A DNA stretch of 64,000 nt, taken from contig NZ_CP120416.1 of assembly GCF_032773895.1 (NCBI RefSeq), positions 1,424,001 through 1,488,000 of the forward strand, written 5' to 3'. The notes beneath the pieces were generated by a model. That model was not told where the DNA came from, did not search any database, and saw only the letters and a list, made by a program, of their open reading frames with translations. This document shows positions 15,146 to 64,000 of this stretch, piece after piece (position 1 is the stretch's first letter; each line of letters starts with the position of its first letter). Origin of the DNA: Teredinibacter sp. KSP-S5-2. GTDB lineage: Bacteria; Pseudomonadota; Gammaproteobacteria; Pseudomonadales; Cellvibrionaceae. Made by a program: the position numbers and the translations under genes.

Positions 15146-15300
15146 GCAGGTTCTTGGTGAGGCAGGATCTAAGTGACAGGAAGTTTCCAGCTGCAAAGTT
15201 GGTTCGGTATTAAAGGGTGATAGGGATATCTTTAATTTTGAAATGAAGTGTTTTAATGGACAAAGAGGCTACGGATGGCTACCTACATTAAGGATATAAA

Positions 15301-16317
15301 ATGAAAATAATAGATGGCTCACAAGGCGAAGGGGGAGGGCAGGTTTTTCGTACCAGTTTAACGCTTTCAATGTGCTTGGGGGAGCCGGTAACAATAAAAA
15401 ATATACGCTCAGGTAGGAAAAAGCCTGGGTTATTACGACAGCATCTAACTTGTTTAAAGGCTGCGCAGGAAATCTGTGATGCAAAAGTGGAAGGGGCGGT
15501 GCTCGGTTCTCAAAGCGTTGTGTTTACTCCTGGTAAGGTGAGGCCGGGAAAATATCACATTGCTGTGGGTTCTGCTGGAAGTACTACGCTGGTATTTCAA
15601 ACGGTGTATTTGCCATTGTTACTGACTGGTGGTGACAGTGAATTATTGCTTGAAGGAGGGACGCATAACGGTATGGCTCCGAGCTTTGACTTTATTCAGA
15701 ACTCCTTTTTTCCCGAGTTAAGCAAGATGGGCGTTTGTATGGAAGCAATATTGGATCGCTACGGGTTTTACCCTGCAGGTGGTGGTGCTTGGAAGGCGCG
15801 CATTACGCCTGTTGGTAGGATTGCTAAATACAAAAATGAAGTGCGTGGTGACCTTTTGTCTGTAAGTGCGGTCGCAACTTCGGCTCAAATTCCTCAGCAT
15901 GTGGTGGATAGAGAGCTGCGGAGTGTTGCTAATCGCTTTTCATTGCAGACTGAGAGTTTGCATAAACGGTTAGTAAAGTCTGTTGGCCCTGGAAATATTC
16001 TCTCTTTACGTGCTGAATATGAAAATATGACAGAAGTGGTTGAAGTGATCGGCGAGCGAGGTGTTTCAGCAGAAAAAGTAGCGGACAAGGCAATATCGGA
16101 AATGGATCGCTACTTAAACTCAAATGCAGTGGTAGGTGAGCATTTGGCGGATCAATTGCTATTACCAATAGTGTTAGGTGGTGGAGGCAGCTTTACTACG
16201 CTTGAGCCCAGTCTGCATCTAAAAACTAATGCTTCTGTTATTCAAGCGTTTATTCGTTGTCAGATTTCCATTACTAAGCGCGATGAAAAGATTTGGCAGG
16301 TGAGTGTCTCTCACTAA
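15301..16317 (+). CDS. rtcA: RNA 3'-terminal phosphate cyclase
   Basis: 338-aa ATP-dependent enzyme converting RNA 3'-phosphate to 2',3'-cyclic phosphate. The N-terminal GSQGEGGGQVFRTSLTLSM and RSGRKKPGLLRQHL are family signatures. GEHLADQLLLP near residue 280 carries the catalytic His that becomes adenylylated, and HLKTNASVIQAF follows. It lies 155 bp after rtcB; that gap holds a GATGGCTACC motif (15274-15283) resembling the proposed RtcR site but no clear promoter. It may prepare ends for RtcB or protect them. Confidence 0.95.
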   Translation: MKIIDGSQGEGGGQVFRTSLTLSMCLGEPVTIKNIRSGRKKPGLLRQHLTCLKAAQEICDAKVEGAVLGSQSVVFTPGKVRPGKYHIAVGSAGSTTLVFQTVYLPLLLTGGDSELLLEGGTHNGMAPSFDFIQNSFFPELSKMGVCMEAILDRYGFYPAGGGAWKARITPVGRIAKYKNEVRGDLLSVSAVATSAQIPQHVVDRELRSVANRFSLQTESLHKRLVKSVGPGNILSLRAEYENMTEVVEVIGERGVSAEKVADKAISEMDRYLNSNAVVGEHLADQLLLPIVLGGGGSFTTLEPSLHLKTNASVIQAFIRCQISITKRDEKIWQVSVSH

Positions 16318-16338
16318 GCTTGCCAATATCCAAGGCGG

Positions 16339-17100
16339 TTACATAACTATTTTCCTGAGTAGTTGTTCGTAATCGCTTTGTTTTCCTTGTCTCTTTCTCT
16401 CTGAAAAACTCTCGGATACCTGCTCGTAGGTTTCTAAGCTGTATTGCCAAAGGTTTTTGGGGATTGCAAAGGCATCTTTCTCTTTTTGCTTGGCTTTATC
16501 TTGAAGTACGATTTTCAGTTCGTTTTTGAGGTTTGTGTCAAGGTAAGTCTTTGTCAAAACTTCAAAAAGAACAGGAGGAGCAGTATTTCTGTCTGCTATC
16601 CAGTTTGCGCACAATAAAGCGCGTAAACCATACAAATAGGCTTTTGCGTTAAATTGGGTCTGAGGTTCAAGAAATTTCCTTTTGGTTAGGGAGATATAGT
16701 GGTAAAACGCCGGTGCGGCGTTGAATTCTTTAGCTGCAAAATCTCTCAATAATGAGTGCTTTTCTTGATTGCTGAAATACACGATGGGGGAGTTTAGCCA
16801 TTCGTGTACAGTCGCGTTTCCTTTGTATAGGAGGCTTAGTGTTTTTCCAATATCCCAGCCTGCAATATCCAGGTCGTCAGTAATGGGGATTTCGATATTG
16901 TCTTTTTTCTCAAAAGGGCTGATGTACCACTCGTGCTCATGGTGATAAATAATCCGGACGTCATAGTCGCTGTCTAGCGAAGGAAAACCCCAGGCTCTGC
17001 TGCCGCTTTCCACCGCGTGAAGAATGGTAATGCCTTTCTCTCGCTCCAGGTTTTGAAGATGGTTTTCAATTTCCTGTAGTTTATCTTTTTTTATTTCCAT
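16339..17100 (-). CDS. RlaP-type (YcgL/PF10127) nucleotidyltransferase, copy A
   Basis: 253-aa DNA-polymerase-beta-fold protein. The signature GSRAWGFPSLDSDYDVRII contains the GS and DxD metal-binding acidic pair, and a third acidic residue lies in DLDIAGWDI. The family (RNA-ligase-associated polymerase, RlaP) is found in RNA repair operons and is thought to add or template nucleotides at damaged RNA ends; that function is predicted rather than read here. It is co-oriented with and 11 bp from a paralogue, and convergent with rtcA (21-bp gap, no clear terminator). Confidence 0.85.
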   Translation of the reverse strand: MEIKKDKLQEIENHLQNLEREKGITILHAVESGSRAWGFPSLDSDYDVRIIYHHEHEWYISPFEKKDNIEIPITDDLDIAGWDIGKTLSLLYKGNATVHEWLNSPIVYFSNQEKHSLLRDFAAKEFNAAPAFYHYISLTKRKFLEPQTQFNAKAYLYGLRALLCANWIADRNTAPPVLFEVLTKTYLDTNLKNELKIVLQDKAKQKEKDAFAIPKNLWQYSLETYEQVSESFSERKRQGKQSDYEQLLRKIVM

Positions 17101-17111
17101 TTTTTTATCTT

Positions 17112-18014
17112 TTATAGAGATAGTGAGCTAACTATCTTCTTGATTTCATTAAGTGCTTTGGTGTTTTTATCCTGAGAGGATATGCAATTCTCTAGTGTGC
17201 CGTAATGCTGTTCAAGGCAGTGTAATAGTAGATCTTTTATTGCGTTGTGGTCAGCTTTGATTGGTAGGGTGCTATTGGTGTATAGAGTTTCCAAAGATTT
17301 CTCTTTTTCGTAAAAATAGGTTTCAATCTGATGTTGGTTCCATTCTCCTCTTCGTATGGCCTTTAGTTGTTCGCTGTTCTTGTCTAGCTCCAAATCGCCT
17401 TCAGCCATAATTTGCTCAATTTCGTTGAGCAGGCGTACCACGTGATAGGCAAACTTTACATCATAGCCGTACTTTTCAATGAGCTTGACTCTATTTCCTT
17501 CGGGCTGCTTAGTTTTCATCTTATGCATCTGAGCATAAGCGTAGCCTTTGAAGGTTGGCCAGCAACCTTTATGCAAAAACAGGTGGCGGTTTTCTCTAAT
17601 AAGCTCACCCAGTGCGGTGCTGTATATCACGCAGCGGCGCGGAACAAAGAGGGTGTCAATGATATTGGGGTTGCAATCCGCAAGCAGTCGAAAGTACTTA
17701 ATGATGGAGTATATGGTGAGGTCGTATTCACGCCCTTTTCCAGCATTGCCAGATGCGTCTTGAATTTTATGTTGTTGAAATTGGTTGAAGGGCTTTAGCT
17801 CTTGATCAAACCCGTGGATATAGCCTTGCAGATGCGGAAACACCGTATCTCTTGGTGGGATAGCAAAGCCATAAATGTCCATATCTGAATTATCGTTAGA
17901 TACTCCATAGGCGATTGACCCCATGATGACTTCGTACTGAACTCCGGTATCCAGGAAGTGGGGTGGGTTAATTAGCAGGTTTTGTTTTTTTAAGTGTCGA
18001 GTTTTGCTTGCCAT
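17112..18014 (-). CDS. RlaP-type nucleotidyltransferase, copy B
   Basis: 300-aa member of the same pol-beta-like family, with GSIAYGVSNDNSDMDIYGF near residues 32-50 as the catalytic signature. It is only distantly similar to copy A, so the two probably act on different ends or substrates. The rest is helical and carries the family-typical Tyr/Lys-rich region near residue 150 (FKGYAYAQMHKMK). It is first gene of a two-gene minus-strand operon and divergent from rsr; the 298-bp gap between them contains the rsr sigma-54-like promoter. Confidence 0.85.
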   Translation of the reverse strand: MASKTRHLKKQNLLINPPHFLDTGVQYEVIMGSIAYGVSNDNSDMDIYGFAIPPRDTVFPHLQGYIHGFDQELKPFNQFQQHKIQDASGNAGKGREYDLTIYSIIKYFRLLADCNPNIIDTLFVPRRCVIYSTALGELIRENRHLFLHKGCWPTFKGYAYAQMHKMKTKQPEGNRVKLIEKYGYDVKFAYHVVRLLNEIEQIMAEGDLELDKNSEQLKAIRRGEWNQHQIETYFYEKEKSLETLYTNSTLPIKADHNAIKDLLLHCLEQHYGTLENCISSQDKNTKALNEIKKIVSSLSL

Positions 18015-18118
18015 GGGTCTGTGGTGATTCTAAGTGTGGATAGGCCTTAGTTTAAAAGCTTAAGTGTTAAATCTCCATAAGTTTGGATATATGATGCATG
18101 GTTTTATAAAGTATCTAT

Positions 18119-18139
18119 AGAGATAGATGGCTATCTATA
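18119..18139. promoter_or_regulatory. candidate RtcR upstream activating site (rsr)
   Basis: A palindromic site GATAG-ATGG-CTATC with flanking complementary bases; the core GATGGCTATC is at 18126-18135. It stands 130 bp upstream of the rsr sigma-54-like element, matching the 129 bp seen at rtcB. Confidence 0.5.
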
Positions 18140-18255
18140 AGGATATAAATTTACTGTAATGATGCTCTTAAATGAATAGGTGAAATTTTGGTGCGTCAAA
18201 ATAAAATCTATAAAAATCAATAGGTTAAAAATTCTTTTATTGTTTTTATCTTTTT

Positions 18256-18270
18256 TGGCACGGTGCTTGT
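18256..18270 (+). promoter_or_regulatory. sigma-54-like promoter of rsr
   Basis: TGGCACGGTGCTTGT fits the -24 consensus perfectly and the -12 element with one change (TTGT for TTGC). It ends 42 bp before the rsr start. In enterobacteria the rsr-yrl-rtcBA operon is likewise driven by RtcR and sigma-54. Confidence 0.6.
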
Positions 18271-18312
18271 AGTGTACCTGGTAACTATTTATGAGATTGA
18301 AGGAATAGAGAA

Positions 18313-19863
18313 ATGGCTAATAAAAATTTGTTCTCTAAAATTCGAGGTATTAAAGCTGATTCGGTAAACGAAGCCGGTGGAAAAGCATATGCTCTTTCTA
18401 ATAAAGAGGCTTTGGCTCAATACGTCGTAACAGGGTGTTTAAATGGTACTTTTTATGCGACTGATGAAAAACAGCTGCAAACAGTTATCGATTTGGCTAA
18501 TAAGGTTGACGCAAGGTTTTTATCTCAGCTTGCGATATATGCACGTAATCATGCGTATATGAAAGATAGTCCCGCATTGTTGCTGGCGGTGTTAAGCATG
18601 AAGGATACCGAATTATTTAAGCGGACTTTTTTTCAGGTTATTGATAACGGGAAGATGTTAAGAAATTTTGTTCAGATTATGCGTTCTGGCGTTGTGGGAA
18701 GAAAATCATTAGGTTCAGCACCTAAGAAGATGGTGGCGGCCTGGCTAAGAAATAAAAAATCGGAGCAGTTGTTGAATGCTTCAGTGGGAAAATCTCCATC
18801 TTTATCTGATGTAATTAAGATGGTTCATCCTGCGCCAGTAGATTTGGAGCAAGAGGCGCTGTTTGCTTACATCGTTAATAAGGAATATAAGTTCGAAAAT
18901 CTACCTAGGTGCGTAAAAGAGTTCGAGAGGTTTAAATCTGGAGTGGCGTCAAAAGTCCCAAATGTAGATTTTCGTTTATTAAGCGGTTTGGAACTGGATG
19001 CAGATACCTGGAAAAGCATTGCTGAAAACGGTGGTTGGCAGATGACACGTATGAACCTGAATACGTTTAATCGACAGGGATGTTTTGATGATAAAAAGCT
19101 AACGATTAAAATGGCTAATCGTTTACGAAATAAAGCATTAATTGAAAAATCTAAGGTATTTCCCTATCAGCTAATGTCCGCATTTAACGCTGCGGTAGAT
19201 GTGCCAAAAGTTATTCGAGATGCTTTGCAAGATGCTATGGAGCATGCTTTGAGTAACGTGCCTGTACTGAAGGGAAAGACTTACGTACTCATTGATGTTT
19301 CCGGTTCGATGCAATCTCCTGTGACGGGGTATCGCCCTGGGGCTACATCGACGGTTCGTTGTATTGATGTCGCCGCCTTGTTTGCCGCGGCATTGTTAAA
19401 AACGGGTCAAGATGTAGAAATTATCCCCTTTGATACCCAAGTTCATAGAGCTAGATTGAATGATCGTGATAGTGTTTTTACGGTCGCACATAATTTAGCA
19501 AAATACGGTGGTGGAGGTACTGCTTGCGGTTTGCCTCTCGAAGAACTAAATATGTGTCGAGCCAAAGCTGACACAGTAATTTATTTTTCCGATAATGAAT
19601 CGTGGGCTGATCGAGGCTACTTTGGCGGCAGAACAAAAATATCTAAGGAATGGGCGGTGTTTAAAAAGCGAAACCCAAATGCAAAATTGGTTTTGACTGA
19701 CTTGCAACCATACGGAACATCTCAGGCGAAATCCAGCCATGATGTGCTTAATATAGGTGGTTTTTCTGACCAAGTGTTTAATGTTATTGCGCAATTTGTT
19801 GACGGTGGTGGAATCCCTAATTATTGGGAAAAGGTAATTTCCGACCAGGTTCAAAGTGCTTAG
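18313..19863 (+). CDS. rsr: Ro60/Rsr-like TROVE domain RNA-binding protein
   Basis: 516 aa. The N-terminal two thirds is the HEAT-like TROVE ring (MKDSPALLLAVLSM, KKMVAAWLRNK). The C-terminal third is a von Willebrand A domain with MIDAS motif DVSGSM near residue 328. Bacterial Ro proteins bind Y RNAs and 3' ends of misfolded or damaged RNA and can tether PNPase for RNA decay. The start follows AAGGAATAG. It is directly followed by two Y-RNA-like genes, strong context for the call. Confidence 0.94.
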   Translation: MANKNLFSKIRGIKADSVNEAGGKAYALSNKEALAQYVVTGCLNGTFYATDEKQLQTVIDLANKVDARFLSQLAIYARNHAYMKDSPALLLAVLSMKDTELFKRTFFQVIDNGKMLRNFVQIMRSGVVGRKSLGSAPKKMVAAWLRNKKSEQLLNASVGKSPSLSDVIKMVHPAPVDLEQEALFAYIVNKEYKFENLPRCVKEFERFKSGVASKVPNVDFRLLSGLELDADTWKSIAENGGWQMTRMNLNTFNRQGCFDDKKLTIKMANRLRNKALIEKSKVFPYQLMSAFNAAVDVPKVIRDALQDAMEHALSNVPVLKGKTYVLIDVSGSMQSPVTGYRPGATSTVRCIDVAALFAAALLKTGQDVEIIPFDTQVHRARLNDRDSVFTVAHNLAKYGGGGTACGLPLEELNMCRAKADTVIYFSDNESWADRGYFGGRTKISKEWAVFKKRNPNAKLVLTDLQPYGTSQAKSSHDVLNIGGFSDQVFNVIAQFVDGGGIPNYWEKVISDQVQSA

Positions 19864-19940
19864 GTTTTGAGGCGAATGCTGATGGAACTACATTTATGGG
19901 AAATATGTTTCATCAATTTTTTGTCGCCTCTCTTTTTGTG

Positions 19941-20104
19941 TTGACTTTTCTTGCACAGGTAAGAAATGCTTGTGGGACTACATCCAGGTTCGGAGGAGTG
20001 GGTTCGACTCCCACCGCTTACCCTTCAGTGGGGGCGTGGCTCATTGGTAGAGTACCGAAAAATGTCTCTCAATAACTTGTTTTTGTCATTGTAAGAAGAG
20101 TCAA
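19941..20104 (+). ncRNA. yrlA: YrlA-like Y RNA, copy 1
   Basis: The ends form a 12-bp basal stem (19941-19952 with 20093-20104, one G-U). An upper stem pairs GGGAC (19974-19978) with GTCTC (20064-20068). Between them is a tRNA-like module in permuted order: T arm GTGGG-TTCGACT-CCCAC (19998-20014), acceptor 3' strand, a short loop, acceptor 5' strand (20030-20036), then a D arm GCTC/GAGT (20039-20053). Bacterial Y RNAs pair a Ro-binding stem with a tRNA-mimicking module, which matches this layout and its position directly after rsr. Its acceptor helix is weaker than that of copy 2 (two G-U pairs and one mismatch). Confidence 0.8.
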
Positions 20105-20112
20105 CCAAATCT

Positions 20113-20262
20113 AAGGTTTTCAAAAGAATGCCTGTGGGACTACATCGACTTTTAATCGGGTGGTCGCGGGTTCGAATCCCGCCGCTTCTAACAGTGGAAG
20201 CGTAGCTCAGTGGTAGAGCACCAAGGCGTCTCACACCCTCTTGTCTTTTGAAAATCTTTTTT
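20113..20262 (+). ncRNA. yrlA: YrlA-like Y RNA, copy 2
   Basis: A 15-bp basal stem joins 20113-20127 to 20244-20258 and is followed by Ts, so it can double as terminator. An 8-bp upper stem pairs TGTGGGAC (20133-20140) with GTCTCACA (20228-20235). The tRNA-like module is permuted: T arm GCGGG-TTCGAAT-CCCGC (20166-20182), a 7-bp acceptor helix (20183-20189 with 20196-20202) closed by loop AACAGT, then a D arm GCTC/GAGC (20205-20219). No anticodon arm or free CCA end exists. The antisense reading frame over this region is a non-coding shadow. Confidence 0.85.
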
Positions 20263-20290
20263 ATCGTTTTGGATTAAAGGAAGTACTGTT

Positions 20291-21610
20291 ATGGAATACA
20301 AAAACAGTGAAGAGAAAAGAATAGCAAAAGATACTTTTGTATCAAAAGGCCGGGAAAAGCAGCTAATTAGTCAGTCGAAAGACTCAAATGGTTATATCAG
20401 AGAAGCGGCTGTTAAGGCGCTATCTTGCTTCCCGTCTGAAGATACGGTAGAGGCACTAATTATAAGAACAAATGATTGGGTGCCTATAATCAGGAGCAGA
20501 GCAAAAGAAATCCTGACAGACATGTTGTCTGAGTCGTCGGCTATATACTATGCAAAAAAATTAAATCGTTTTTATCATTTGCGCCAGTGCGGAAGAAGTG
20601 AGCATTCTAGCTTTGTTAGAGAAATAGAAAAACAGCTTTGTCTATTTCCTGATGCACTTAAGGAAGCCCTTAGGAAAAGCTCTGCTGAGTCAGCATTATA
20701 TTCAGCGAAGCTGTTGGCTAGAGCAGAGCATTTTTCTAAAAAAGCACTTTTCGACCTTTGCCTGGCTAGTCGTTATGTCCGTGTTCGGCAGTTTGGTCTT
20801 TCAAGCCTTGAACAGGTGTCAGAAGTAGATGGTCATATTCTAGGTAAGGTCTCGATATTAGATAAGTCAGCAAGAGTACGAAGTGAAGCATTCCGTCAGT
20901 TGGTGCGCCTTGCTGAAAATGAGTCTCTTCAGGTAGCGAAAGAGCTGATGTTTGACTCGCACACTGGTGTGCGTTCGGCGGCCGTTTTTCAATTGAAGAA
21001 AAGTGGTTTTGATTGTGTTGATGTTTATCTAAAGCAATTAAATACAGAAATGCCTCGTAAACAAAAAATTGCGATATGGGGTTTAATGGAATTGTTCTCG
21101 AAGGCTAGCTTAAGTGAAGTGTTGCCTAAGCTAGACTCAGAATATCCAAGCGTGCGCTTGCAAGCCCTAAGAGCGTGTTATGTTTTTGCTGAAGAGACTG
21201 ATTTAGTTAGTATCTTGAAGAGAATGATGATGGACGACTCACCAAAGATAGTTAAGGAATGTGCCAGGATGCTGGAAAAGAGCAATCTGGTTATATCTTT
21301 GGAAGAGTTTGAAACTATTCTTCTTGGTCAGAAGTCGGTTGGTGTTTATCCTGCCTTGCTTAGAACGACTCATAAAATGAATAAATGGAAACAATTGCTA
21401 TTCTTAAGCAAACTCTCGAAGGCGGCGAATAAAGAACTGGCTTGCTCCATTGAAAAGGTATTGATGCTTTGGGTAGAGAAAATGGCGAACTTTTTTGTTG
21501 ATCCTTCTACGGTGCAGATCGAACAAATAAATAGTCTGGGCAAGTGTGAAAAGAAGTTATGGTCAACTTCTGTCAAACATGTAATAAAATATCGATTCTC
21601 GTTAATCTAA
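20291..21610 (+). CDS. HEAT-repeat protein
   Basis: 439 aa built almost wholly of helical pairs. Repeats recur about every 30-35 residues, for example GYIREAAVKALSCF, PIIRSRAKEILTDM, ARVRSEAFRQLVRL and TGVRSAAVFQLKKSG. There is no catalytic motif or signal peptide, so it is a cytoplasmic scaffold or RNA/protein-binding solenoid. It follows the Y RNA genes and is probably co-transcribed with rsr, suggesting a role as adaptor or regulator of the Ro complex; that role is inference. Confidence 0.8.
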   Translation: MEYKNSEEKRIAKDTFVSKGREKQLISQSKDSNGYIREAAVKALSCFPSEDTVEALIIRTNDWVPIIRSRAKEILTDMLSESSAIYYAKKLNRFYHLRQCGRSEHSSFVREIEKQLCLFPDALKEALRKSSAESALYSAKLLARAEHFSKKALFDLCLASRYVRVRQFGLSSLEQVSEVDGHILGKVSILDKSARVRSEAFRQLVRLAENESLQVAKELMFDSHTGVRSAAVFQLKKSGFDCVDVYLKQLNTEMPRKQKIAIWGLMELFSKASLSEVLPKLDSEYPSVRLQALRACYVFAEETDLVSILKRMMMDDSPKIVKECARMLEKSNLVISLEEFETILLGQKSVGVYPALLRTTHKMNKWKQLLFLSKLSKAANKELACSIEKVLMLWVEKMANFFVDPSTVQIEQINSLGKCEKKLWSTSVKHVIKYRFSLI

Positions 21611-49062: not shown

Positions 49063-49188
49063 GCCGCCCAAATTGCAAGAGATACCTTTCTGGCTGCTGA
49101 CTCTTGCTCGATGGTCGCGTTAATCGTGACCGCTTTTTCGTTTCTCAAAATTTTGAGAGCGTATTTCTATCGAGCAAACGGAGGCAGT

Positions 49189-50613
49189 ATGAGTACTTCG
49201 CTCAAACGTCTTACAAAATTATTTAAAAAGCAGAACTTAGCTGTATCCAAAGATGGGGCTGTGTACCGAATCCAAAATATTGGAGTGCCTGGCGCGCCTA
49301 TATCTGAGGTGCTTTTGCCTGAGCGCTATAATCTGGATCTAAAGGCTGTAAAACAACTTATGTCTTTCGCTGGAGTGGCTCATCCTAACGGTGGCGAAGT
49401 AAGAGCTGCAGTAGCGACTCCAGATTTTCATGCCGGTTCTAGTGTTCCTGTTGGTGCGGTTGTGGCAACATCCAGAGATATGATTATTCCTCAAGCCATA
49501 GGTACAGATATTCACTGTGGCATGAGGTTACATGCTATGGATATTGATATTACGGACTGGCAAAGCAAAAAAACAGAGTTGGTGGAAAAACTGCGAGGTG
49601 ATTTACTGCTAGGGACTAGGAATTTACCAATGCAACCTCGCAGTTTTCATGAGCTATTTAATAATGGCTTAGCTGGCTGGGTTAGATCTGCAAAGTTAAA
49701 ACCTATGGGTGATTTTATAGAAACGGATTTTGTTCAACTGGAAAACGAGCTTGGTTGTGTCTATTCCGGAGGTTCAGAAGAGGGGCATGCTAAATGGGCT
49801 CCAGAATCATTGGTGAACCTTGAGCGAAGCGTTATTCGTGATAGCTCATTAGCAACCATTGGTGGTGGTAACCATTTTGTAGAGTTTCAAATCGTTGATG
49901 AAATTCTGGATCGGAAGAGGGCTTTTCAGTTAGGGGTTAAAAAGGGTCAGATTTCAATAATGATTCACACAGGCTCTAGAGCAGTGGGTATGCATGTAGG
50001 AAACTATTGGATAGATAAAGCAAGGGAAAATTGGCCGAGTACCTATAAATACCCAAGTTCAAAAATATTCCCGTTATATGGGAATAGGGCAACGGAGTAT
50101 TTAGAAGCAATGAATACGGCCGCTAATTATGCCAACCTTAACCGACTGCTTTTGGCTGAGTTGGTGCGCAAGCGTGTAAGGGAGGTATTTGGTAAGGGTA
50201 TTGAGATGCCTCTAATTCATGACGCACCTCATAATATCGTTACTGAAGAGTCGGGCTGCTTTATTCACCGTAAAGGCGCGACACCAGCGCATTTCGGAGA
50301 GCCGGTATTGATACCAGGTTCTATGGGGCATCCTTCCTACTTAATGATGGGGTTGGGCAACCAACGCTTTCTTAATTCTGCGTCTCATGGTGCTGGGAGA
50401 GATAAATCCCGGCATGATATGTTTTGTAGAAATAAAGCTGGCGAGGACTTGGGGTTAACCTGTGTGGACTGTATTACGCTCAAGGAGGATCGTCGAATCG
50501 AAGAAGCTCCAGCGGCTTACAAGGATATCGACGAGGTTGTGGAGGTACAGGTTCAAAACAAAATTGTTAGCCCTGTAGCTAAATTAAAACCAATGTTGAC
50601 TTTTAAAGGTTAG
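49189..50613 (+). CDS. second RtcB-family RNA ligase
   Basis: 474 aa RtcB of a longer, clearly different subfamily. The start at 49189 follows GGAGG; an upstream ATG adds a hydrophobic tail that is surely leader. Conserved elements are TPDFHAGSSVPVGAVV, GTDIHCGMRL (metal Cys), GGGNHFVEFQ, IHTGSRAVGMHVG and SASHGAGRDKS with the guanylylated His. Having a constitutive-type promoter instead of sigma-54 implies basal or differently induced use. It may be specialised for a particular damaged RNA. Confidence 0.92.
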   Translation: MSTSLKRLTKLFKKQNLAVSKDGAVYRIQNIGVPGAPISEVLLPERYNLDLKAVKQLMSFAGVAHPNGGEVRAAVATPDFHAGSSVPVGAVVATSRDMIIPQAIGTDIHCGMRLHAMDIDITDWQSKKTELVEKLRGDLLLGTRNLPMQPRSFHELFNNGLAGWVRSAKLKPMGDFIETDFVQLENELGCVYSGGSEEGHAKWAPESLVNLERSVIRDSSLATIGGGNHFVEFQIVDEILDRKRAFQLGVKKGQISIMIHTGSRAVGMHVGNYWIDKARENWPSTYKYPSSKIFPLYGNRATEYLEAMNTAANYANLNRLLLAELVRKRVREVFGKGIEMPLIHDAPHNIVTEESGCFIHRKGATPAHFGEPVLIPGSMGHPSYLMMGLGNQRFLNSASHGAGRDKSRHDMFCRNKAGEDLGLTCVDCITLKEDRRIEEAPAAYKDIDEVVEVQVQNKIVSPVAKLKPMLTFKG

Positions 50614-55068: not shown

Positions 55069-56088
55069 ATGTTTGGTTTTAAATATATTAAATCGGAACC
55101 CACTACCTACTTGATGCAGTTCTCCCGTGGGAAACTCAAAAGGAAAGGGGCTGGGTTAGCTTTCTGGTACTTTTCACCTTCCGTATCAATGGTTGCTATT
55201 CCAATGGGGTCGGTTGATCAGCCTTTTATGTTTAAGGAGTCAACCAAGGACTTTCAAGAGGTCAACGTGCAGGGGCAGATCGTTTTTCGTATTGTGGAGC
55301 CTGAGAAGCTTGCGTCCATAATGAACTATTCGCTTAAACCAGGTGGAGCTGGTTATGTTTCGGAGGATCCGGAGAAGCTAAAGAATAGGGTGGTGAGCCT
55401 GGTCCAAGTCATTATGCGGTCTCGCTTGGAGCAACTTGAGTTACGAGAAGCTATTTCCGCTTCGAAGGACTTAGTCAGCGGAGTTAAGAGTGCTTTGATG
55501 ACCTCTGATGTTTTAAGTGCTTTAGGTGTGGAAGTCCTGGATTTTGCAATTTTGGCAATTAAACCTAATCCAGAGACTGCACGAGCACTTGAAGCCTCTG
55601 TACGAGAGCAGCTTTTAGAAGAAGCTGATGAAGCTATCTACAAACGTAGAAATGCTTCTATTGATCAGGAACGACTTGTTAAGGAAAACGAGTTAAAGAC
55701 GGAACTTGCTGTTGAACAGAAACAACAGATAATCAAGGAAGAGAAGCTCAAGGCCGAGCGACAGCTGGCTGAACAACGTAGGCAGATGAAAAAGGAAGCG
55801 CTGGAAGCGGAAATCGAGCAGGAAGAAAAACGCAAGGAGTTTGTTGAGCTTTCCACAGAGAACTCAAGGAAACAAGCGGACGCAAAAGCCTATGATATTT
55901 CTGAAACCATGCAGGCGTTAGCTGGGGTAGATGTTCGAGTGTTGGAAGCACTTGTTATGTCTAACCTTAAACCCGAGCAAATGCTGGCTCAAGGAATAAG
56001 AGAGCTTGCAGGGAATTCAGAAAAAATCGGCCAGCTCAATTTCTCTCCAGATCTACTTCAGGCAATGGCAGGAGCTGTGCAACGTTAA
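55069..56088 (+). CDS. SPFH/Band 7 domain protein
   Basis: 339 aa. A Band 7 domain (about residues 15-195; FQEVNVQGQIVFRIVEPEKL) is followed by a long charged coiled coil (about 195-280, rich in Glu, Lys and Gln). There is no N-terminal transmembrane segment, unlike flotillins. The start at 55069 follows GGAGG, one base after the kptA stop. Such proteins form ring scaffolds; here it may organise the following NAD-kinase-like protein. That role is inference. Confidence 0.85.
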   Translation: MFGFKYIKSEPTTYLMQFSRGKLKRKGAGLAFWYFSPSVSMVAIPMGSVDQPFMFKESTKDFQEVNVQGQIVFRIVEPEKLASIMNYSLKPGGAGYVSEDPEKLKNRVVSLVQVIMRSRLEQLELREAISASKDLVSGVKSALMTSDVLSALGVEVLDFAILAIKPNPETARALEASVREQLLEEADEAIYKRRNASIDQERLVKENELKTELAVEQKQQIIKEEKLKAERQLAEQRRQMKKEALEAEIEQEEKRKEFVELSTENSRKQADAKAYDISETMQALAGVDVRVLEALVMSNLKPEQMLAQGIRELAGNSEKIGQLNFSPDLLQAMAGAVQR

Positions 56089-56100
56089 GGGCATGCAGTT

Positions 56101-57018
56101 ATGAAGAAGCTGGAGAGAAAAATCGTCGTTGTGACTCGCAAGACAAGGTTGGCTGAATTGGTGGCACAGTACAACACCAAGGCTCAAGCTAAGTTTGTTA
56201 TTGAGAGTCGCAACGGCGACTTTTCGGATTATGAGGTAGAGCATGAAGTATATTGCAATGCACTCAAACAAGTAGAAAATGTACTGAAAGACTTGGCTCG
56301 GGTGCAGTTTCTGGACAGAGAGTTTCTGCCGAATTACCTATTTGGAGAAGAAGATATTGTCTTAGTTATTGGTCAGGATGGCTTAGTCGCAAATACTTTG
56401 AAGTACCTGAGCCGTCAGCCTGTAGTTGCTATCAATCCGGATATGCATCGGTACGATGGGGTGCTTCTGCCTTTTTCCGTAGATGATGTAAAAGTCATTG
56501 TCACTGAAGTACTCAATAAACGTTATTCTTCTAAAAATATTACTATGGCTCAAGCCAATTTGAATGATGGCCAAAGCCTGTTGGCCGTAAATGACTTGTT
56601 TATTGGTCCAAAACTGCAGATTTCTGCGAGATACCAATTACACATTGATGGAAAATCTGAACATCAAAGTTCCAGTGGTGTATTGGTTTCAACAGGGCTA
56701 GGCTCAACAGGTTGGCTAAAGAGTGTTATTGCTGGGGCTCAAGGAGTCGTCCCTGGTTCATCCTGTGAACATCAACCCATTCCTTGGGATGCGAATTACT
56801 TGTCCTATGCTGTCCGTGAACCGTTTGTTAGCCAGATTACTGGCGCTGAGTGTATTTTTGGAAGAGTTAACCGCGGGGAAAAGCTCACCATTGAATCACA
56901 AATGACAAACCATGGTGTGATTTTTAGTGATGGTATGGTCGACGATTTTATAGAGTTCAATAGTGGAGCCGTAGTTGATATAAAGGTATCGAGTAGGCAA
57001 GGGAATCTAGTGGTATAA
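56101..57018 (+). CDS. NAD kinase-like protein
   Basis: 305 aa. It shows a variant GGDGT motif as IGQDGLVANTLKYL (catalytic Asp kept), NPDMHRYDG, NDLFIGPK where NAD kinases have NE/ND, and LVSTGLGSTGWLKS for TPTGSTAY. The fold is therefore NAD kinase or a close relative, but two hallmark positions differ, so a different nucleotide substrate is possible. It is 12 bp after the SPFH gene. Confidence 0.8.
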   Translation: MKKLERKIVVVTRKTRLAELVAQYNTKAQAKFVIESRNGDFSDYEVEHEVYCNALKQVENVLKDLARVQFLDREFLPNYLFGEEDIVLVIGQDGLVANTLKYLSRQPVVAINPDMHRYDGVLLPFSVDDVKVIVTEVLNKRYSSKNITMAQANLNDGQSLLAVNDLFIGPKLQISARYQLHIDGKSEHQSSSGVLVSTGLGSTGWLKSVIAGAQGVVPGSSCEHQPIPWDANYLSYAVREPFVSQITGAECIFGRVNRGEKLTIESQMTNHGVIFSDGMVDDFIEFNSGAVVDIKVSSRQGNLVV

Positions 57019-57111
57019 ATCAAAGAGCATAAATTAATGGAAGAAATGGCCATCATTCTTATTGGAAGTGAGCACCAATTGGCTACGGATTTTGATCATT
57101 GAGGAACAGTT

Positions 57112-57594
57112 ATGAGAGAAACAGAGGAGTTTTACTTCTTTTGGAAACATCAGTTTGGTCAGTGGACTAAGAGGGATATTGTAGATCCAGAGGGGGTAAA
57201 GTATAACTGTTGTGAACAATACATGATGTATAAAAAGGCTCTTCTATTTGGGGATATGGAGACTGCAAGTAAAATTTTAAGTGAGCCAGAGCCAGCCGTA
57301 CAACAAAAATTGGGACGAGAGGTTAAAAGATTTCAGTCTGGGTTGTGGAACCTGAATAAGATTGGAATTGTATGGTATGGAAACTATTTGAAGTTTTCTC
57401 AGCATGCGGATTTGTCTAGTAGATTAATTGATACAGGTAGCAAGGTGTTAGCCGAAGCATCTCCATACGACCTTGTATGGGGCGTTGGATTTTCGGCTGA
57501 TGATGATTTAATACTTGATGAGAAAAACTGGCGAGGGAAGAATCTTTTGGGGAAGGTACTTATGTCTGTACGTGACGCAATTAAGCTAGCTTGA
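57112..57594 (+). CDS. NADAR (YbiA/DUF1768) family protein, copy 2
   Basis: 160 aa, nearer to the E. coli YbiA size. FYFFWKHQFGQW, YNCCEQYMMYKKALLFGD, GREVKRFQSGLWN, LAEASPYDLVWGVGF and WRGKNLLGKVLM are family motifs. It is last in the kptA operon. The unlike partner at 50.6 kb suggests two different ADP-ribosylated substrates. Confidence 0.9.
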   Translation: MRETEEFYFFWKHQFGQWTKRDIVDPEGVKYNCCEQYMMYKKALLFGDMETASKILSEPEPAVQQKLGREVKRFQSGLWNLNKIGIVWYGNYLKFSQHADLSSRLIDTGSKVLAEASPYDLVWGVGFSADDDLILDEKNWRGKNLLGKVLMSVRDAIKLA

Positions 57595-57645
57595 ACATAA
57601 TACTTTCTCCAACAATGAGTTATTCTCAGAGCTAATATAGGGAAA

Positions 57646-57852
57646 CTACAGTTCTATTGTTAGGTTCACATCAAGTATCCTTTTAACTATCTTATCTGCA
57701 CCAATGCTCGAAGGCGCAATGGGGGATAGCTCTGAGAAGTCCTCTTCAATGGTGCAGATCTCTCTGAGATCAATAACTGAAACCTTTCCTTTAATCGCCT
57801 TTCCTAACATGACTTCATTAAAGAGCTCAAGTGCGGTATTTGCTCCATGCAA
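57646..57852 (-). pseudogene. short protein-like remnant at island edge
   Basis: A 68-aa frame with balanced composition (ANTALELFNEVMLGKAIKG, IGADKIVKRILDVNLTIEL). The frame stays open upstream of its ATG but without a good start site. It may be the 3' end of a decayed gene. I do not recognise it. Apart from this and the repeats listed below, 57595-58282 has no supportable gene. Confidence 0.3.
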
Positions 57853-57953
57853 AGCTCAGGGGAATAGAAAGAGCAGGTTGCTTCTGGTTACGAAGGGTAT
57901 GAGTGCGATAGCTGGTTCAAATCAGGTTCAAACCTGTAGATGGCTAGTTGTTC

Positions 57954-57973
57954 GCGTGACAAATACGTGACAA
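57954..57973 (+). repeat. 20-bp direct repeat, right copy
   Basis: Exact, same-orientation copy of 11826-11845, with the internal GTGACAA pair at 11-bp spacing. Confidence 0.55.
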
Positions 57974-58088
57974 CACTTCTGAGTTGATGTGATCAAACCT
58001 GCATTAAGCTGAATGGGTGCACGAAAGCCAGCTTGTTAAGTTATTGAAATTTAAGGAAAAAATATGTCTGAGTTCGTGCGAAATGCCT

Positions 58089-58106
58089 CTGGCAGTGTTG
58101 AGGTCA
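58089..58106 (+). other. candidate right attachment core (tRNA-Ala fragment)
   Basis: 18 bases identical to positions 11523-11540 of tRNA-Ala, after which similarity to the tRNA 3' half largely stops. Together with the adjacent 20-bp repeat it marks the probable right end of the island. Confidence 0.5.
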
Positions 58107-58282
58107 TCGATTTACTAATTCGCCATGAACAAACTCACTCGCCTAATCCATGAGGCTAGCCTTTTAGGTCGCTACACTAATCCATCTCATACAAACTTCC
58201 GGGTGTTTTACCAGAGTATCGCCAATTCCCGATATAATCCCCACATCAAACCCAATAATCACACAAGAAAGCAGAACAAAGA

Positions 58283-59209
58283 ATGGCCATACAATGGTAC
58301 CCGGGGCACATGCACAAAGCCCAAAAAGAGATAAAAGAGGCATTGCCAAAGGTCGATGTTGTTATTGAGGTGGTGGATGCGCGTATTCCGTATAGTAGTA
58401 CCAACCCTGCTGTGGCAGAAATTATTGCCAAGGAGCATCAGAAGAAGCCGGTTATACGGTTACTTAATAAAAGTGACTTAGCTGACCCGGAAACCACAAG
58501 GTTATGGTGTGAGTATTTTGAAAGCCTGGACGATTCGAAAGCTATACCCGTGACCAGTAAGAAGCCTGAGCAGATAAAAAAGCTTTTGAAGTTATGTCAT
58601 GAGCTGGTTCCAGAACGTAATACGAGCCTGAAACCGATTAACGCCATGATTATGGGCATACCCAATGTGGGAAAATCCACTATCATCAATATTCTTTCTG
58701 GCCGAAAGCTTGCCACTGTGGGGAATGAACCTGCGGTTACCAAGCGCCAACAAAAAATACATTTGGATAGCAACATTGTTTTGCATGACACCCCAGGGTT
58801 TTTGTGGCCGAAAATTCATAATAAAAATAGCAGTTACCGTTTAGCCGTTACGGGTGCGATTAAAGATACGGTTATTGAGTATGACGACATTGCTTATTAT
58901 GCGGCAGAATATTTACTACAAGCTTACCCTGAGAAACTAAAAGAGAATTTTAAATTAGATTCTTTGCCTGATGATGTTACAGAGTTACTGGAAAGCATCG
59001 GTAGAAGAAGAGGGTGTATAACCGGGGGGAAACGAGTTGATATTGATAGGGTGTGCAAAATACTGATTCATGAATTTAGAGATTGCACTATAGGGCCGAT
59101 TAGCTTAGAAACACCAACTATGATTGAGCAAGAGCTAATTGAAGTGGAAGAGGCTATTCGTAAAAAAGCCGAAAAAGATGCTGCTAGGAAAAAGAGGAGA
59201 AAGAAATAA
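58283..59209 (+). CDS. ylqF: YlqF/RbgA-type ribosome-biogenesis GTPase
   Basis: 308 aa circularly permuted GTPase. Order is G4 NKSDL, G5-like VTSKK, G1 GIPNVGKST, G3 DTPG, typical of the family, and the N-terminal WYPGHMHKAQKEI is its signature. The C-terminal tail is strongly basic (RKKAEKDAARKKRRKK). It assists assembly of the large ribosomal subunit. It is probably a normal chromosomal gene just outside the island. Confidence 0.93.
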   Translation: MAIQWYPGHMHKAQKEIKEALPKVDVVIEVVDARIPYSSTNPAVAEIIAKEHQKKPVIRLLNKSDLADPETTRLWCEYFESLDDSKAIPVTSKKPEQIKKLLKLCHELVPERNTSLKPINAMIMGIPNVGKSTIINILSGRKLATVGNEPAVTKRQQKIHLDSNIVLHDTPGFLWPKIHNKNSSYRLAVTGAIKDTVIEYDDIAYYAAEYLLQAYPEKLKENFKLDSLPDDVTELLESIGRRRGCITGGKRVDIDRVCKILIHEFRDCTIGPISLETPTMIEQELIEVEEAIRKKAEKDAARKKRRKK

Positions 59210-59482
59210 GACGAGCTTGTCTGCTATTGATAATTTGGGCAGACTCCATTTCATCGCCGTCTATTTGTAAGTATGCCAGTTCTCTAAAAATCTATCGCAA
59301 CCCACAACATCCTATGTCAGATACAACCCCCCCCCCAGAAAACCAGTTCCATTCAAAAGCGGTAGATTCAAACCAGCCCGGTATTCATGAACGGCTGGAA
59401 TAAACGGTGTTAAAGCATATTAGCACCCCGTATCGGAAGCCTTACCGTGACCACCTTTGAGTGTTTAATGAACTCCCGTTTT

Positions 59483-59533
59483 TCAGCGCAACGCATAAAA
59501 CGAAACCCCATGCTTTTCTAAAAGCTGCCGACT
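59483..59533 (-). pseudogene. remnant of an rtcR C-terminus
   Basis: Read on the minus strand, the codons give SRQLLEKHGVSFYALR and a stop; the intact RtcR ends IRQLLEKYGVSFDELR. Nucleotides also match well over about 45 bp. A TGA in frame two codons upstream ends the similarity. The rest of 59210-59640 contains a C10 tract at 59327-59336 but no gene. Confidence 0.75.
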
Positions 59534-59640
59534 TGCTCAAAAAACCGTCAAGCCGTCATTTTCGGGTGAACTGTAGCATGCCGTTTTGGCTCATCTCCTG
59601 TAAAATGGGCCCCAAATTAGTATGAAACCAGGAATTAGCA

Positions 59641-60357
59641 ATGGGTAGAGCCTTCCAAAACCGAAAAGAATCCATGGCAAAAACCTCGGATCAGAAATCC
59701 AAGGTATACAGTAAATACGGCCGGGAAATATATGTATGCGCCAAATCAGGTGGTACTGACCCTGATAGTAATCTAAGCCTTCGAGCGTTGATTGATCGAG
59801 CAAAAAAAGATCAAGTACCCACCCATGTTATTGAAAAGGCCATAAAGAAAGCGGAAGGTGGTGGAGGAGAGAACTTCGATGCAGCCAGATACGAGGGGTT
59901 TGGCCCAGGTAACTGTATGGTGATTGTAGATTGCCTTACAGACAACCCAAATCGCACCTTCGGTGATCTGCGCACCTGTTTTAACAAGGCAAAGGCCAAA
60001 ATCGGTACACAAGGCAGTGTCAGCCACATGTTTGATCATTGCGCCATTCTCGCGCTTAAAGGGCAGGAAGAAGACGCTGTGCTGGAAGTTTTAATGGAGG
60101 CCGATGTCGACGTTACTGACATTGAAAACGAAGATGATATGGTCACAGTCTTTGCACCACACACAGAATACTTCAAAGCTAAACAAGCCCTTACAGATGC
60201 CTTTGAAGGTGTGGAGCTGGAAGTGGATTCTATTCAGTTCGTGCCACAAGTAACGACCGATATTTCTGGTGATGATGTGGCAATAATGGAGCGCTTTCTA
60301 GATATGCTTAATGATTGCGATGACGTACAGAGGGTTTATCACAACGCCATTTATTAA
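59641..60357 (+). CDS. YebC/YeeN family DNA-binding regulator
   Basis: 238 aa. The N-terminus [15 protein letters not shown] and [18 protein letters not shown] belong to the YeeN branch of the YebC/PmpR family. [19 protein letters not shown] and [12 protein letters not shown] follow. YebC proteins were described as transcription regulators; recent work on homologues indicates action on ribosomes stalled at proline motifs. It is monocistronic with a terminator. Confidence 0.92.
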
Positions 60358-60378
60358 TAACTCACTCCACTAAAAATG

Positions 60379-60405
60379 AAGGGAGCATCTCGCTCCTTTC
60401 TTTTT
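60379..60405 (+). terminator. terminator after the YebC-family gene
   Basis: An 8-bp stem AAGGGAGC/GCTCCTTT (60379-60399) is followed by a T-rich tract. Confidence 0.8.
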
Positions 60406-60461
60406 ATATAACTCCTGCTTTTTACATTACTCCCGAGCTTTTTTAAGTTTCGCTCCTGCTG

Positions 60462-60536
60462 TTATCTCCAAGGTAAGCCAATTTGGTAACTGAACCTATA
60501 CATGATGGAGACTAAACTTACCGAAGTTGGAGATAA
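60462..60536. repeat. 75-nt stem-loop / inverted repeat
   Basis: TTATCTCCAA/TTGGAGATAA (10 bp) continues inward to GGTAAG/CTTACC (6 bp) with a 4-nt bulge. No T-run follows, so it is not a simple terminator. It could be a small RNA or a MITE-like insertion. Other parts of 60406-60774 show nothing. Confidence 0.45.
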
Positions 60537-60774
60537 AAAACTGGATTAGTCTCTTGTAAACCCGTTTTTTACTTGGTTGATTTGAATGTGAAGGGATAGT
60601 AAGTCCTCTTTAGTCGTAATTAAAACTTCAGTTTTTAAAGTCTGTGCTTCTACTGAGCTTCGTTTTGGCAATATGGGCTGACAAGCTTAACAACCAAATA
60701 CTTTCTTTGAGAGACGGATAAGAACGAACGTATATTTCTCTGTATATGCTGCTGTGCTTGAAAGGGTGTATGGC

Positions 60775-61518
60775 TTATTCATTATTCATGGATACCATAC
60801 TGGCGAGTTTATCGATATCGGCTAAGAAAATAAGCTTCTTATCCACTTTTATTAAATTAAATTTTTGGAGTCGTGATAGTACACGGCTGACAGTCTCAAT
60901 TGTTATTCCTAAATAATTTCCAATATCCGTCCGAGACATGGGTAAGAAAAATTCCTTTGCCGATAAGCCTCGAGACGAATAACGCCTGGATAAGTTTAAC
61001 AACAAAAATATAACGCGCTCTTGCGCTTGTTGTGTGTTGATTAACGTCATGAGTTGCTGTTCGTGTATGATACTTTTACTGAGTACCTGGAAAAACCATC
61101 GTTGGATATCGGGATTGTCTGAACTGATTTTTTCCAATCGAGAAAACGGAATGATAGATACAGTCGAACGTTCAAGTGCGATGGCGGAGTTACTGTGATG
61201 ATTGGATGCTAATCCGTCCACGCCAACTATTTCTCCTGGAAAGTAGAACCCAGTTACTCGTTCATGGCCTTTGTGTGTATTTTTAACTGTTTTTATCGCA
61301 CCCGTTTTGAGTAAAAAAACTGATTTGAACTCTTTGCTGGCTTGGTAGAGATATTCACCTTTATCAATGGGGCGATGCTGTTCGACTATCTGATCAAATT
61401 TGTCCAGATCTTGTTTGCTCAAGCGGCTTAGAAGCTGCACTGAAGATTGTCCAGCGGGTAGCATCTGTCTTGCTGGACGGGTTTCGTAGTAAAAAGAGCG
61501 TTTAGCGAGCATATCCAT
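60775..61518 (-). CDS. Crp/Fnr family transcription regulator without Fe-S cysteines
   Basis: 247 aa from the ATG at 61518; earlier ATGs add a poorly plausible tail. A cyclic-nucleotide-type sensor domain (GEYLYQASKEFKSVFLLKTGAIKTV) precedes an HTH with ITIETVSRVLSRLQ, where E, S and R match the FNR DNA-contact residues. No cysteine is visible in the region that binds the Fe-S cluster in FNR. It therefore likely recognises FNR-type sites but senses something else. Confidence 0.88.
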   Translation of the reverse strand: MDMLAKRSFYYETRPARQMLPAGQSSVQLLSRLSKQDLDKFDQIVEQHRPIDKGEYLYQASKEFKSVFLLKTGAIKTVKNTHKGHERVTGFYFPGEIVGVDGLASNHHSNSAIALERSTVSIIPFSRLEKISSDNPDIQRWFFQVLSKSIIHEQQLMTLINTQQAQERVIFLLLNLSRRYSSRGLSAKEFFLPMSRTDIGNYLGITIETVSRVLSRLQKFNLIKVDKKLIFLADIDKLASMVSMNNE

Positions 61519-62159
61519 ATTGGAGAAAACCACCATCAATATAAGGATTAGAATTTTTAGACTGAAAGCTTCTTTATTGATCGTGTTGAAGAAACAATAG
61601 TCAGAGTGAAGTGTTTGCCTGCGTTTTTGACAGTGTAGCAAAGTGTTGGGAAATGTTGATTGATTTGATGACAAAGAGCAAGAAAAACTAGTAGGCAAAT
61701 CAATCTTGTTTTTTGGGTGTTAAAAATTAACAACACTAGTTTGTGTAAGTCTTTTCTTTATCTTCACAAGAAATTATGTCCGTGACTGTTGTGAGTAGAT
61801 GAGTATTTCTTCGAGCTTTGTAAGAGATAGAAAATACTGATGTTGTTTATCCCTTGAAAGGATGATGTCATACGTTTCAGATACGAATATCCTTCAGAGT
61901 AGGTTAGCCTGCAAAGCAGGTTTCGATTTTAAGAAAACTAGTAATCGAGTTCGATTGTGATACTTCGTATTATCTAGGGTTATTAAAAACTCCCCTTATA
62001 TTTTGATGTTTGACGCAGAATTCTTTTTATTGGAATAGCAACGTTTGCGGCGTCTTTTTAATCGTTTTTTCATCTAATAAACCGCTTCAAATAGATAGGA
62101 ATACGTCTAGGCTTGTTACATACCATACCTATTCAGTAGTAGTTGGCAGGAATATGTGG
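61519..62159. other. 641-bp intergenic region between divergent genes
   Basis: Contains the promoters of the Crp/Fnr-type gene and the small Cys-motif gene. AT-rich. I see no convincing ORF, tRNA, strong palindrome or consensus FNR site. Confidence 0.4.
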
Positions 62160-62534
62160 ATGACTATCGATAAGCGATTTGAATTGGATTCCAAAGAGCT
62201 TCACGCTTCGCTGGTGTATGAATGGATTGAAGATGAAATCTTCCTTACTCCGATAGGGGAGCGAGGTTTTGTCCAAGAGAAAACGCAGGTATATCACGAA
62301 AGTGATTATATTCGTGATAATTGTGTTAGCTGCCCTATGAACTGCGATGCGGCACGAGCATTAATGGAAGCCCATATTCAAAAAGTATATTCTTCACCTG
62401 GGCTGCGGGAATCGATTTTACGCGCTGATCGAAATGCGCTGGAAAAACTGGATGAATTTGTGGAGCGTTGCGATCAGTGGGTTCGCAGTAAAAAACGCGA
62501 TATCAATGAGTTGTATTCTATCCGTCCAGACTAA
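62160..62534 (+). CDS. small cysteine-motif protein of unknown function
   Basis: 124 aa, from the ATG at 62160 (AGG at 9-bp spacing; ATG at 62154 is an alternative). The core DNCVSCPMNCDAARALMEAH has Cys-x2-Cys-x3-Cys, suggesting metal or cluster binding. The remainder is charged and helical. No signal peptide. Divergent from the Crp/Fnr-type regulator, which may control it. I do not recognise the family. Confidence 0.6.
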   Translation: MTIDKRFELDSKELHASLVYEWIEDEIFLTPIGERGFVQEKTQVYHESDYIRDNCVSCPMNCDAARALMEAHIQKVYSSPGLRESILRADRNALEKLDEFVERCDQWVRSKKRDINELYSIRPD

Positions 62535-62599
62535 AAAGTGAATACTCCTTTCCGATTTTAATTCTCCCATGAGTTAATCTGATTTATATCGTTTGTCAG

Positions 62600-62634
62600 A
62601 ACAAGCCCGGAACTATCCGGGCTTGTTTTATTTT
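62600..62634. terminator. bidirectional terminator
   Basis: An 11-bp perfect stem AACAAGCCCGG/CCGGGCTTGTT with a 6-nt loop is followed by TTTATTTT, between convergent genes. Confidence 0.88.
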
Positions 62635-62649
62635 CAAACTGTCAGTCGA

Positions 62650-63316
62650 TTATTCCCATAGCTTGTTAAAGTTACCTTTCATTATTGAAGTGTATCGGGT
62701 GGTTTTGCCATTTACATGGTTGATGACCAGATTGTCTTTCTGACGATAAGTTCGAATTTTCTCTCCTCGTAAACCAATGCCAATTTGTTCAGTACGAATA
62801 GTATTTATATCCATATTCTGGCTGGCTTTAGCCGCATTGAATAAACGTCTTTCTAAAGCTTCCAACGCTAACTTTTTATTGGTTTCTCTGTTCCGTCCCT
62901 GGTGGCTTTCAACCATTCCCGTCGATGTGTGAATAACACGGCAGCAGTTTTGGGTTTTATTTCGATGTTGGCCGCCTGCACCGGTACCACTAAACCATTC
63001 AATTCTGACATCCTGGTTAGACAGTTCTTCAAGATCTCTTTTTATTGAGGCATCGTAAACTGCAACAGTGACACTGCTGGTATGGACTCGACCGCGTTTT
63101 TCTGTTGGAGGGATACGTTGAATTCGATGTCCGCCGGCTTCTTGTAACAAGGCATCTACGCCTTTGCCAGAAACATCAAGTGTGAGGGGGCTAAAGGCGA
63201 GTGGTCTTCCAGTTTTGAGCTTCTGCTAACCGAATGTAAGCGTTAGCAAGATCCTGGGCAAATAGTTTACTATCATCGCCACCTTCAGCGGCTCTGATTT
63301 CTAATCTGAGTTTCAT
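62650..63316 (-). pseudogene. release-factor-like (GGQ) protein gene with frame disruption
   Basis: A gene start is clear at 63316: AAGGAG, then [20 protein letters not shown], matching the middle domain of class I release factors. That frame stops at 63191. The next frame continues the similarity (LTLDVSGKGVDALLQEAGGHRIQRIPPTEK, then GTGAGGQHRNKT with the GGQ motif) to 62650. The frames overlap at 63194-63228, near an A4 run. The product would lack the release factor N-terminal domain, as in ribosome-rescue-type RF homologues. The cause may be mutation, sequencing error or a programmed shift. Confidence 0.75.
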
Positions 63317-63609
63317 ATAAATCTCCTTAAGAAGTAAAAATATTCACATGCTATGAATACATAGGTCGTTGTGTGACCGGTGGCCATAGTAATGGCTTTT
63401 CTTTAGAGAATAAAGCCGATTTTAATCGTTAGTGTTTTTAGCTGTTTCGAGCCAATTGATTCAGATGCCCAGGGTGTGATTGAATGCGGTATAAGTTATT
63501 AGAGAAAAGGCCGATATTCCATGGTTTGTGTGGGCTTTTATGTTGAGCTTCTGTATTAGTTGCATTGTCATATCTATGTGAATAGGGTGTTCCTGGAAGG
63601 GGAAATAAG

Positions 63610-64000
63610 ATGAGTATTGTACGAAGAGTTTTATTGAGCTTTTCTTTTTTGATTGCCAGCATTAGTTATGCTGATGTGACCAATATTTATCAAACCCATT
63701 GTTCAGGGTGTCACGGTAAAAATCTATCTGGGGGTTCAGGCAGTTCCTTGATTGATAATGAGTGGAAGTATGGTGGTCGTGATGAGGATATTGCTCAGGT
63801 AATCAAATATGGCGCGCCTGATATGGGGATGCCTGCGTGGGGAAAAATACTGACAGATGAAGACGTGCGTAGTCTGGTGATTTTAATTCGAGAAGAAACC
63901 AAGGCCGCATCGTTAACACAGATGCAGGCAGAGCTTGCACCTGAAAATGGTGTTATCGAAGCTTCGGGGCACAAGTATTCGTTGACCACACTGGCGGAAC
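63610..64000 (+). CDS. c-type cytochrome domain protein (partial)
   Basis: ATG at 63610 after GGAAGGGG opens a frame running off the window (130 codons). A signal peptide ends at SISYA. The haem motif CSGCH and distal Met in MGMPAWGKIL define a class I cytochrome c of about 90 residues. The sequence continues (SGHKYSLTTLAE) like proteins where a cytochrome is fused to a periplasmic dehydrogenase, which cannot be confirmed here. 63317-63609 upstream has no gene. Confidence 0.85.
   Translation, partial: MSIVRRVLLSFSFLIASISYADVTNIYQTHCSGCHGKNLSGGSGSSLIDNEWKYGGRDEDIAQVIKYGAPDMGMPAWGKILTDEDVRSLVILIREETKAASLTQMQAELAPENGVIEASGHKYSLTTLAE

Follow-up and report, generated by a model that had tools for sequence, protein, structure and literature searches.

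The window analysed here is a 64,000-nucleotide stretch of the genome of Teredinibacter sp. KSP-S5-2 (contig NZ_CP120416.1, positions 1,424,001 to 1,488,000). Near its right-hand end, a gap of 431 bp separates two genes that are both on the plus strand: a GTPase gene at 58283–59209 (Pfam MMR_HSR1), which we take to be of the YlqF type and call ylqF, and a YebC-type gene at 59641–60357 (Pfam TACO1/YebC; here, yebC). In this gap, at 59483–59533 on the minus strand, lie 51 bases that read SRQLLEKHGVSFYALR and then a TGA stop. They correspond to the last 16 codons and the stop of a second rtcR, an assignment based on blastn, on translation and on the stretch being closest to the genome's own rtcR among 38 such genes of the family. 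The relic points toward ylqF, so that the two are convergent, and the start of yebC lies 108 bp past it.

The intact rtcR of the window, predicted to encode a sigma-54 activator of the RNA-repair operon, occupies 12103–13710 on the minus strand (Pfam RtcR, PF06956, E 8.5e-82; Sigma54_activat). Divergent from it, on the plus strand, are rtcB and rtcA at 13898–16317 (Pfam RtcB and RTC). An excerpt of one published account describes rtcR as encoded divergently from rtcBA and transcribed away from it (PMC7790460). This arrangement places the rtcR 3′ end at the outer edge of the cluster and the 5′ end in its interior.

The intact RtcR ends in IRQLLEKYGVSFDELR followed by TGA. Read in the same frame, the relic is identical to the last 16 residues of this protein at 12 positions, and a base-by-base comparison with the gene end gives 41 identical bases out of 51. 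When the ylqF–yebC gap was searched against the window by blastn, it matched the 3′ end of the intact rtcR (12103–12151, minus strand) at 40 of 49 bases in the same orientation, with an E value of 8e-8; this pair was also the best match in a comparison of 10000–20300 with 56000–64000. The match begins exactly at the rtcR stop codon; blastn did not extend it into the 3′ flank or farther upstream in the gene. The longest identical run is 9 bases. The match has an ungapped score of 31; the highest among 300 shuffles of the gap in two-base blocks was 13, and among 100 gene-end queries, taken from 50 window genes in either orientation, the next best scored 11. These values confirm the sequence-only reading that 16 codons and a stop match the end of RtcR; the match is in frame and beyond chance. 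The relic shares with RtcR its frame, the position of the stop and 12 of 16 C-terminal residues, but differs from it in holding only 16 of ~535 codons, with the sensor domain and the ATPase domain absent. It is not a gene, and no present function was detected for it.

The present island, which contains the intact rtcR–rtcBA cluster, is bounded by marks of another kind. A tRNA-Ala(GGC) gene at 11492–11567 (plus strand; ARAGORN, Rfam) stands at its left edge. An exact 20-bp direct repeat on the plus strand has its left copy at 11826–11845 and its right copy at 57954–57973, and occurs at only these two places in the 5.03-Mb genome, with up to 2 mismatches allowed. A partial copy of the tRNA-Ala anticodon region, matching at 22 of 24 positions, lies at 58089–58112 (plus strand), 170 bp upstream of ylqF. 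The repeat pair and the partial tRNA-Ala copy mark the ends of the island. The relic lies outside them, beyond ylqF, 1.5 kb past the right 20-bp repeat and 1.4 kb past the partial tRNA-Ala copy, much as previously placed (1.4 kb beyond a right attachment core and past ylqF). Pfam detected no integrase family among the 50 window proteins scanned, a few smaller frames being outside the scan. A check for other decayed island genes between ylqF and yebC, proposed along with the original observation, found none in the gap, and the interval from the relic to yebC yielded no trace of rtcB or rtcA. Pfam matched none of five short open frames that lie next to the relic and at the ends of the island. 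By eye, the open frame at 57649–57855 on the minus strand is similar to the end of an alcohol dehydrogenase; it has no Pfam match and is perhaps a decayed gene at the right edge of the island.

The stretch from 12103 to 57594 gathers RNA-repair and related genes, encoding RtcA, two RtcB (the second, at 49111–50613, assigned by tblastn likeness only), two RlaP-type proteins and KptA, as well as three proteins with an RNA-ligase domain, a Ro60-like protein and a Mut7-C RNase. NAD-synthesis and ADP-ribose-removing enzymes are also encoded there, together with EF-Tu- and EF-G-type genes. After the Ro60-like gene, a YrlA-type Y RNA is predicted at 20121–20253, with an Rfam score of 69.5 against a gathering threshold of 69.

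To place the relic among the rtcR genes of the family, we compared it with the corresponding 51 bases of 38 of them (its own genome's and those of 37 other loci). It is closest to its own rtcR (41/51), followed by the rtcR of genome G014 (37/51), and the other 36 reach at most 27/51. With G014 as outgroup, and over a handful of sites, six changes fall on the relic branch: four change an amino acid and two are silent, where random change would be expected to give 24% silent. Both of the two alignable changes on the branch of the own rtcR are silent, and one site is left undecided; a third change on this branch was left out, as it falls at codon 16, where G014 carries an extra codon. Few as the sites are, the changes on the relic branch suggest neutral decay. 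At two sites the relic agrees with G014 and differs from the own rtcR, and is thus no recent copy of that gene. At four alignable sites it agrees instead with the own rtcR, as it does in ending without the extra codon of G014. On these small numbers the pattern of sites would fit an old, separate copy of the same rtcR lineage that later drifted. A stretch of sixteen codons is too short for a tree. The reading that we regard as most likely from these comparisons is that the relic is what remains of a separate, older rtcR copy.

Full-length rtcR is patchy in the family, with 38 of 144 genomes matching at an E value of 1e-45 or better. These 144 genomes were also searched with a profile of the last 48 RtcR residues, built from 38 sequences. 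It detected seven rtcR tails lacking the remainder of the gene, all at E <1e-5, in six genomes (two in G003 and one each in G022, G040, G106, G108 and G148); rows at E 5.9e-4 and above were left out of this count. The search does not detect the window's own 16-codon relic, and equally short relics elsewhere would escape it.

Comparison of flanks settles two of the seven tails, those of G022 and G106. G022 was compared with G151, a genome of the same genus, in which the corresponding stretch runs in the opposite direction: G022 7500–10332 aligns to G151 13383–10568 at 90.7%, and G022 10473–13500 to G151 6188–3161 at 93.6%. Missing from G022 are 4.4 kb present in G151, comprising rtcA, rtcB and ~430 codons of rtcR, with 140 bp of other sequence in their stead, and 106 rtcR codons and the stop are kept in an open frame (L226 10011–10331, compared with L182 of G151). 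In G106, compared with G123 (L227 and L166), the left flank at 8150–9352 is followed by 25 bp and then by the last 99 rtcR codons and stop at 9378–9677, still in an open frame; some 4 kb largely unlike G123 come next, and then the right flank at 13666–15426. This locus is without rtcA, rtcB and the front of rtcR, and rtcA is present on another G106 contig. Of the protein, each frame would encode no more than the C-terminal end. As judged from the aligned flanks, the two tails sit where relatives keep an intact rtcR–rtcBA cluster, and they show loss in place that left an rtcR tail behind.

Besides the window genome, G003 and G108 have a tail together with an intact rtcR. The two decayed tails of G003 lie ~13 kb apart on one strand (L071 6885–7511; L076 138–969, contig G003:C1) and adjoin sequences that flank the intact cluster of G122 on either side, while the intact G003 rtcR is on another contig; decayed tails with an intact rtcR elsewhere resemble the situation in the window. 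G108 carries, on the same strand as its intact rtcR and ~5.1 kb downstream of it, a decayed 3′ end of 130 bp at 85%. No integrase family was found in the 6 proteins between the G108 copies or in the 10 between the G003 tails, 15 of these 16 proteins matching no Pfam family. By eye, a short frame of G108 (L225 7018–7356) resembles the beginning of a REP-associated transposase. In many relatives, tRNA or tRNA-like genes, some with odd anticodons, occur near rtcBA (L170 14505–16362, L070 9664–10832, L191 12451–12594 and others).

Scraps of the other end of the gene were sought in the 144 genomes with the RtcR N-terminal family PF06956 (43 matched); the count omits six rows in open frames of 208–532 codons, one of which (G148) is over the family's cut-off. 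Three matches were possible N-terminal scraps. The piece in G061 was rejected, the gene being cut by a contig end beside rtcB, and that in G016 is unconfirmed as a scrap. The third, in G122, is a candidate with 33% identity over 60 residues and one stop in the profile match. Eight tails (the relic in the window and the seven others) thus stand against one candidate N-terminal scrap, a rough comparison given the different lengths of the profiles. A search for rtcA relics found partial rtcA in four genomes that retain rtcR (G089, G111, G113 and G127); G022, G040 and G148 showed none.

We consider it probable that the relic was left by deletion of an earlier rtcR–rtcBA cluster that once stood beyond ylqF and before yebC. 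The older rtcR would have been read toward ylqF, in a cluster in which it was divergent from rtcBA. One deletion, or a series, would have taken rtcB, rtcA and the whole of rtcR except its last 16 codons, coming from the operon side and halting inside rtcR, short of the convergent neighbour ylqF; the remnant would then have drifted as non-coding DNA. If the present tRNA-Ala island with its own rtcR was kept, or had already been gained, the loss may have cost little. Because rtcR has its 3′ end outermost in the cluster, a cluster deletion that spared the convergent neighbour would leave an rtcR tail, and this geometry is enough to explain why tails outnumber N-terminal pieces. That this mode of loss acted at the window site, and the order of loss and gain, we infer by analogy with the relatives. 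Of the earlier proposal that an rtcR-containing segment had existed here, from a previous insertion or from recombination between rtcR copies, the segment itself finds support in the stop-exact match, the decay-like substitutions and the equivalent relics; neither route is shown, and in relatives the one best documented is loss in place.

Gene order around the site bears on a different history, in which a rearrangement broke a former rtcR, bringing ylqF and the rtcR 3′ end up to yebC, and the gene body was lost. Neither ylqF nor yebC was found near rtcR at any of 37 family rtcR loci (4–20 kb per locus), so no relative shows an intact ancestral cluster at this site. Nor were ylqF and yebC adjacent at any of the relatives' 25 ylqF loci (flanks of up to 1.5 kb), and in G011 they are 12 kb apart. 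As the two genes are not neighbours in relatives, the site itself may be rearranged, as this history would have it, but gene order is in any case poorly kept at family distance. Another genome of the window's genus is absent among the matches listed. At one of the 25 ylqF loci, in G009, the opposite strand carries a tRNA-Ala(GGC) ~340 bp upstream of ylqF (L056 2662–2737), without yebC there, which hints that tRNA-Ala and ylqF may once have been neighbours; synteny across relatives recovered no ancestral order of ylqF, yebC and tRNA-Ala. Also against a rearrangement, profile searches, which miss very short pieces, found no other fragment of an old rtcR in the genome itself. We regard this history as unlikely.

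Attachment sites of integrative elements often lie at gene 3′ ends, and the relic could be read in these terms, with the rtcR 3′ end as an attachment-type site and 12103–12151 and 59483–59531 as the ends of an element spanning the island and ylqF. The two rtcR ends do form a direct repeat, located near an island and with its start exactly at the stop codon, and the intact rtcR of G108 with a second, decayed 3′ end downstream has the right geometry for insertion there. In the window the geometry is wrong for an element that entered a resident rtcR at its 3′ end: the gene body, expected outside such an element, lies complete between the two copies. The copies are 82% identical and share no run longer than 9 bases, and the island already has other marks, the 20-bp repeat pair (two copies in the genome) and the partial tRNA-Ala copy. 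Likewise, no recombinase gene was found in the element; the absence of an integrase family covers 50 window, 6 G108 and 10 G003 proteins, and for G108 and G003 it argues weakly, 15 of those 16 proteins being without a family. An attachment-type site at the relic is therefore improbable in our judgement, and deletion of an older cluster in place is the reading that we retain.

A broader proposition would be that the RNA-repair clusters of the family turn over by a process that halts preferentially inside the 3′ end of rtcR, the tails marking the homes of lost clusters. If true, the rtcR tail would be a preferred end point, such as a shared end for recombination or integration, rather than simply the cluster's outer edge. 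We hold this to be unlikely.

At the DNA level, searches with the ylqF–yebC gap returned one plasmid record and 31 phage records; the 20 phage matches listed all involve one 26-base stretch that lies outside the relic, with E values of 2 or more. The relic itself, searched against the 144 family genomes, gave two weak matches outside its own genome (G008 and G040), which we set aside as chance, as they lie inside genes that by eye resemble those for a histidine kinase and TrmB; this search is insensitive at 80% identity and also missed the known rtcR match in the relic's own genome. A DNA pattern scan of genome contigs yielded four loci, in records whose titles name unrelated organisms. That the match is chance, or a functional element resembling a gene end (a terminator, an antisense RNA to the rtcR mRNA or a mobile repeat), is very improbable, for although the plus strand of the relic would be antisense to the end of that mRNA, shuffles reach 13 against 31 for the match, 59150–59700 contains no terminator- or promoter-like site and no unusual folding (z −0.79 and −0.48), the changes on the relic branch look unconstrained, and the plasmid and listed phage matches of the gap fall outside the relic. 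The absence of a terminator-like site and of an unusual fold, with database matches lying outside the relic, also gives no support to the terminator-like mobile repeat against which the sequence-only reading had cautioned.

As a gene relic, the stretch is ordinary, but its kind recurs. Like other remnants of accessory operons lost in place, it would be a single gene end that survived at the edge of the lost stretch and drifted, as the pair G022 and G151 illustrates; it differs from them in that no relative with the undeleted site was found and in that an intact system lies ~46 kb away in the same genome. Among the matches listed, titles and abstract openings on rtcR, rtcBA, pseudogenes, RNA repair and genomic islands described no rtcR-tail relics. 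Taken with the relatives, the relic shows that the family lost rtcR–rtcBA clusters more than once and that scars remain, and through such rtcR tails some former carriers are recognisable even where the genes are gone. For this lineage, the relic indicates that its RNA-repair system had an earlier home next to the present island.
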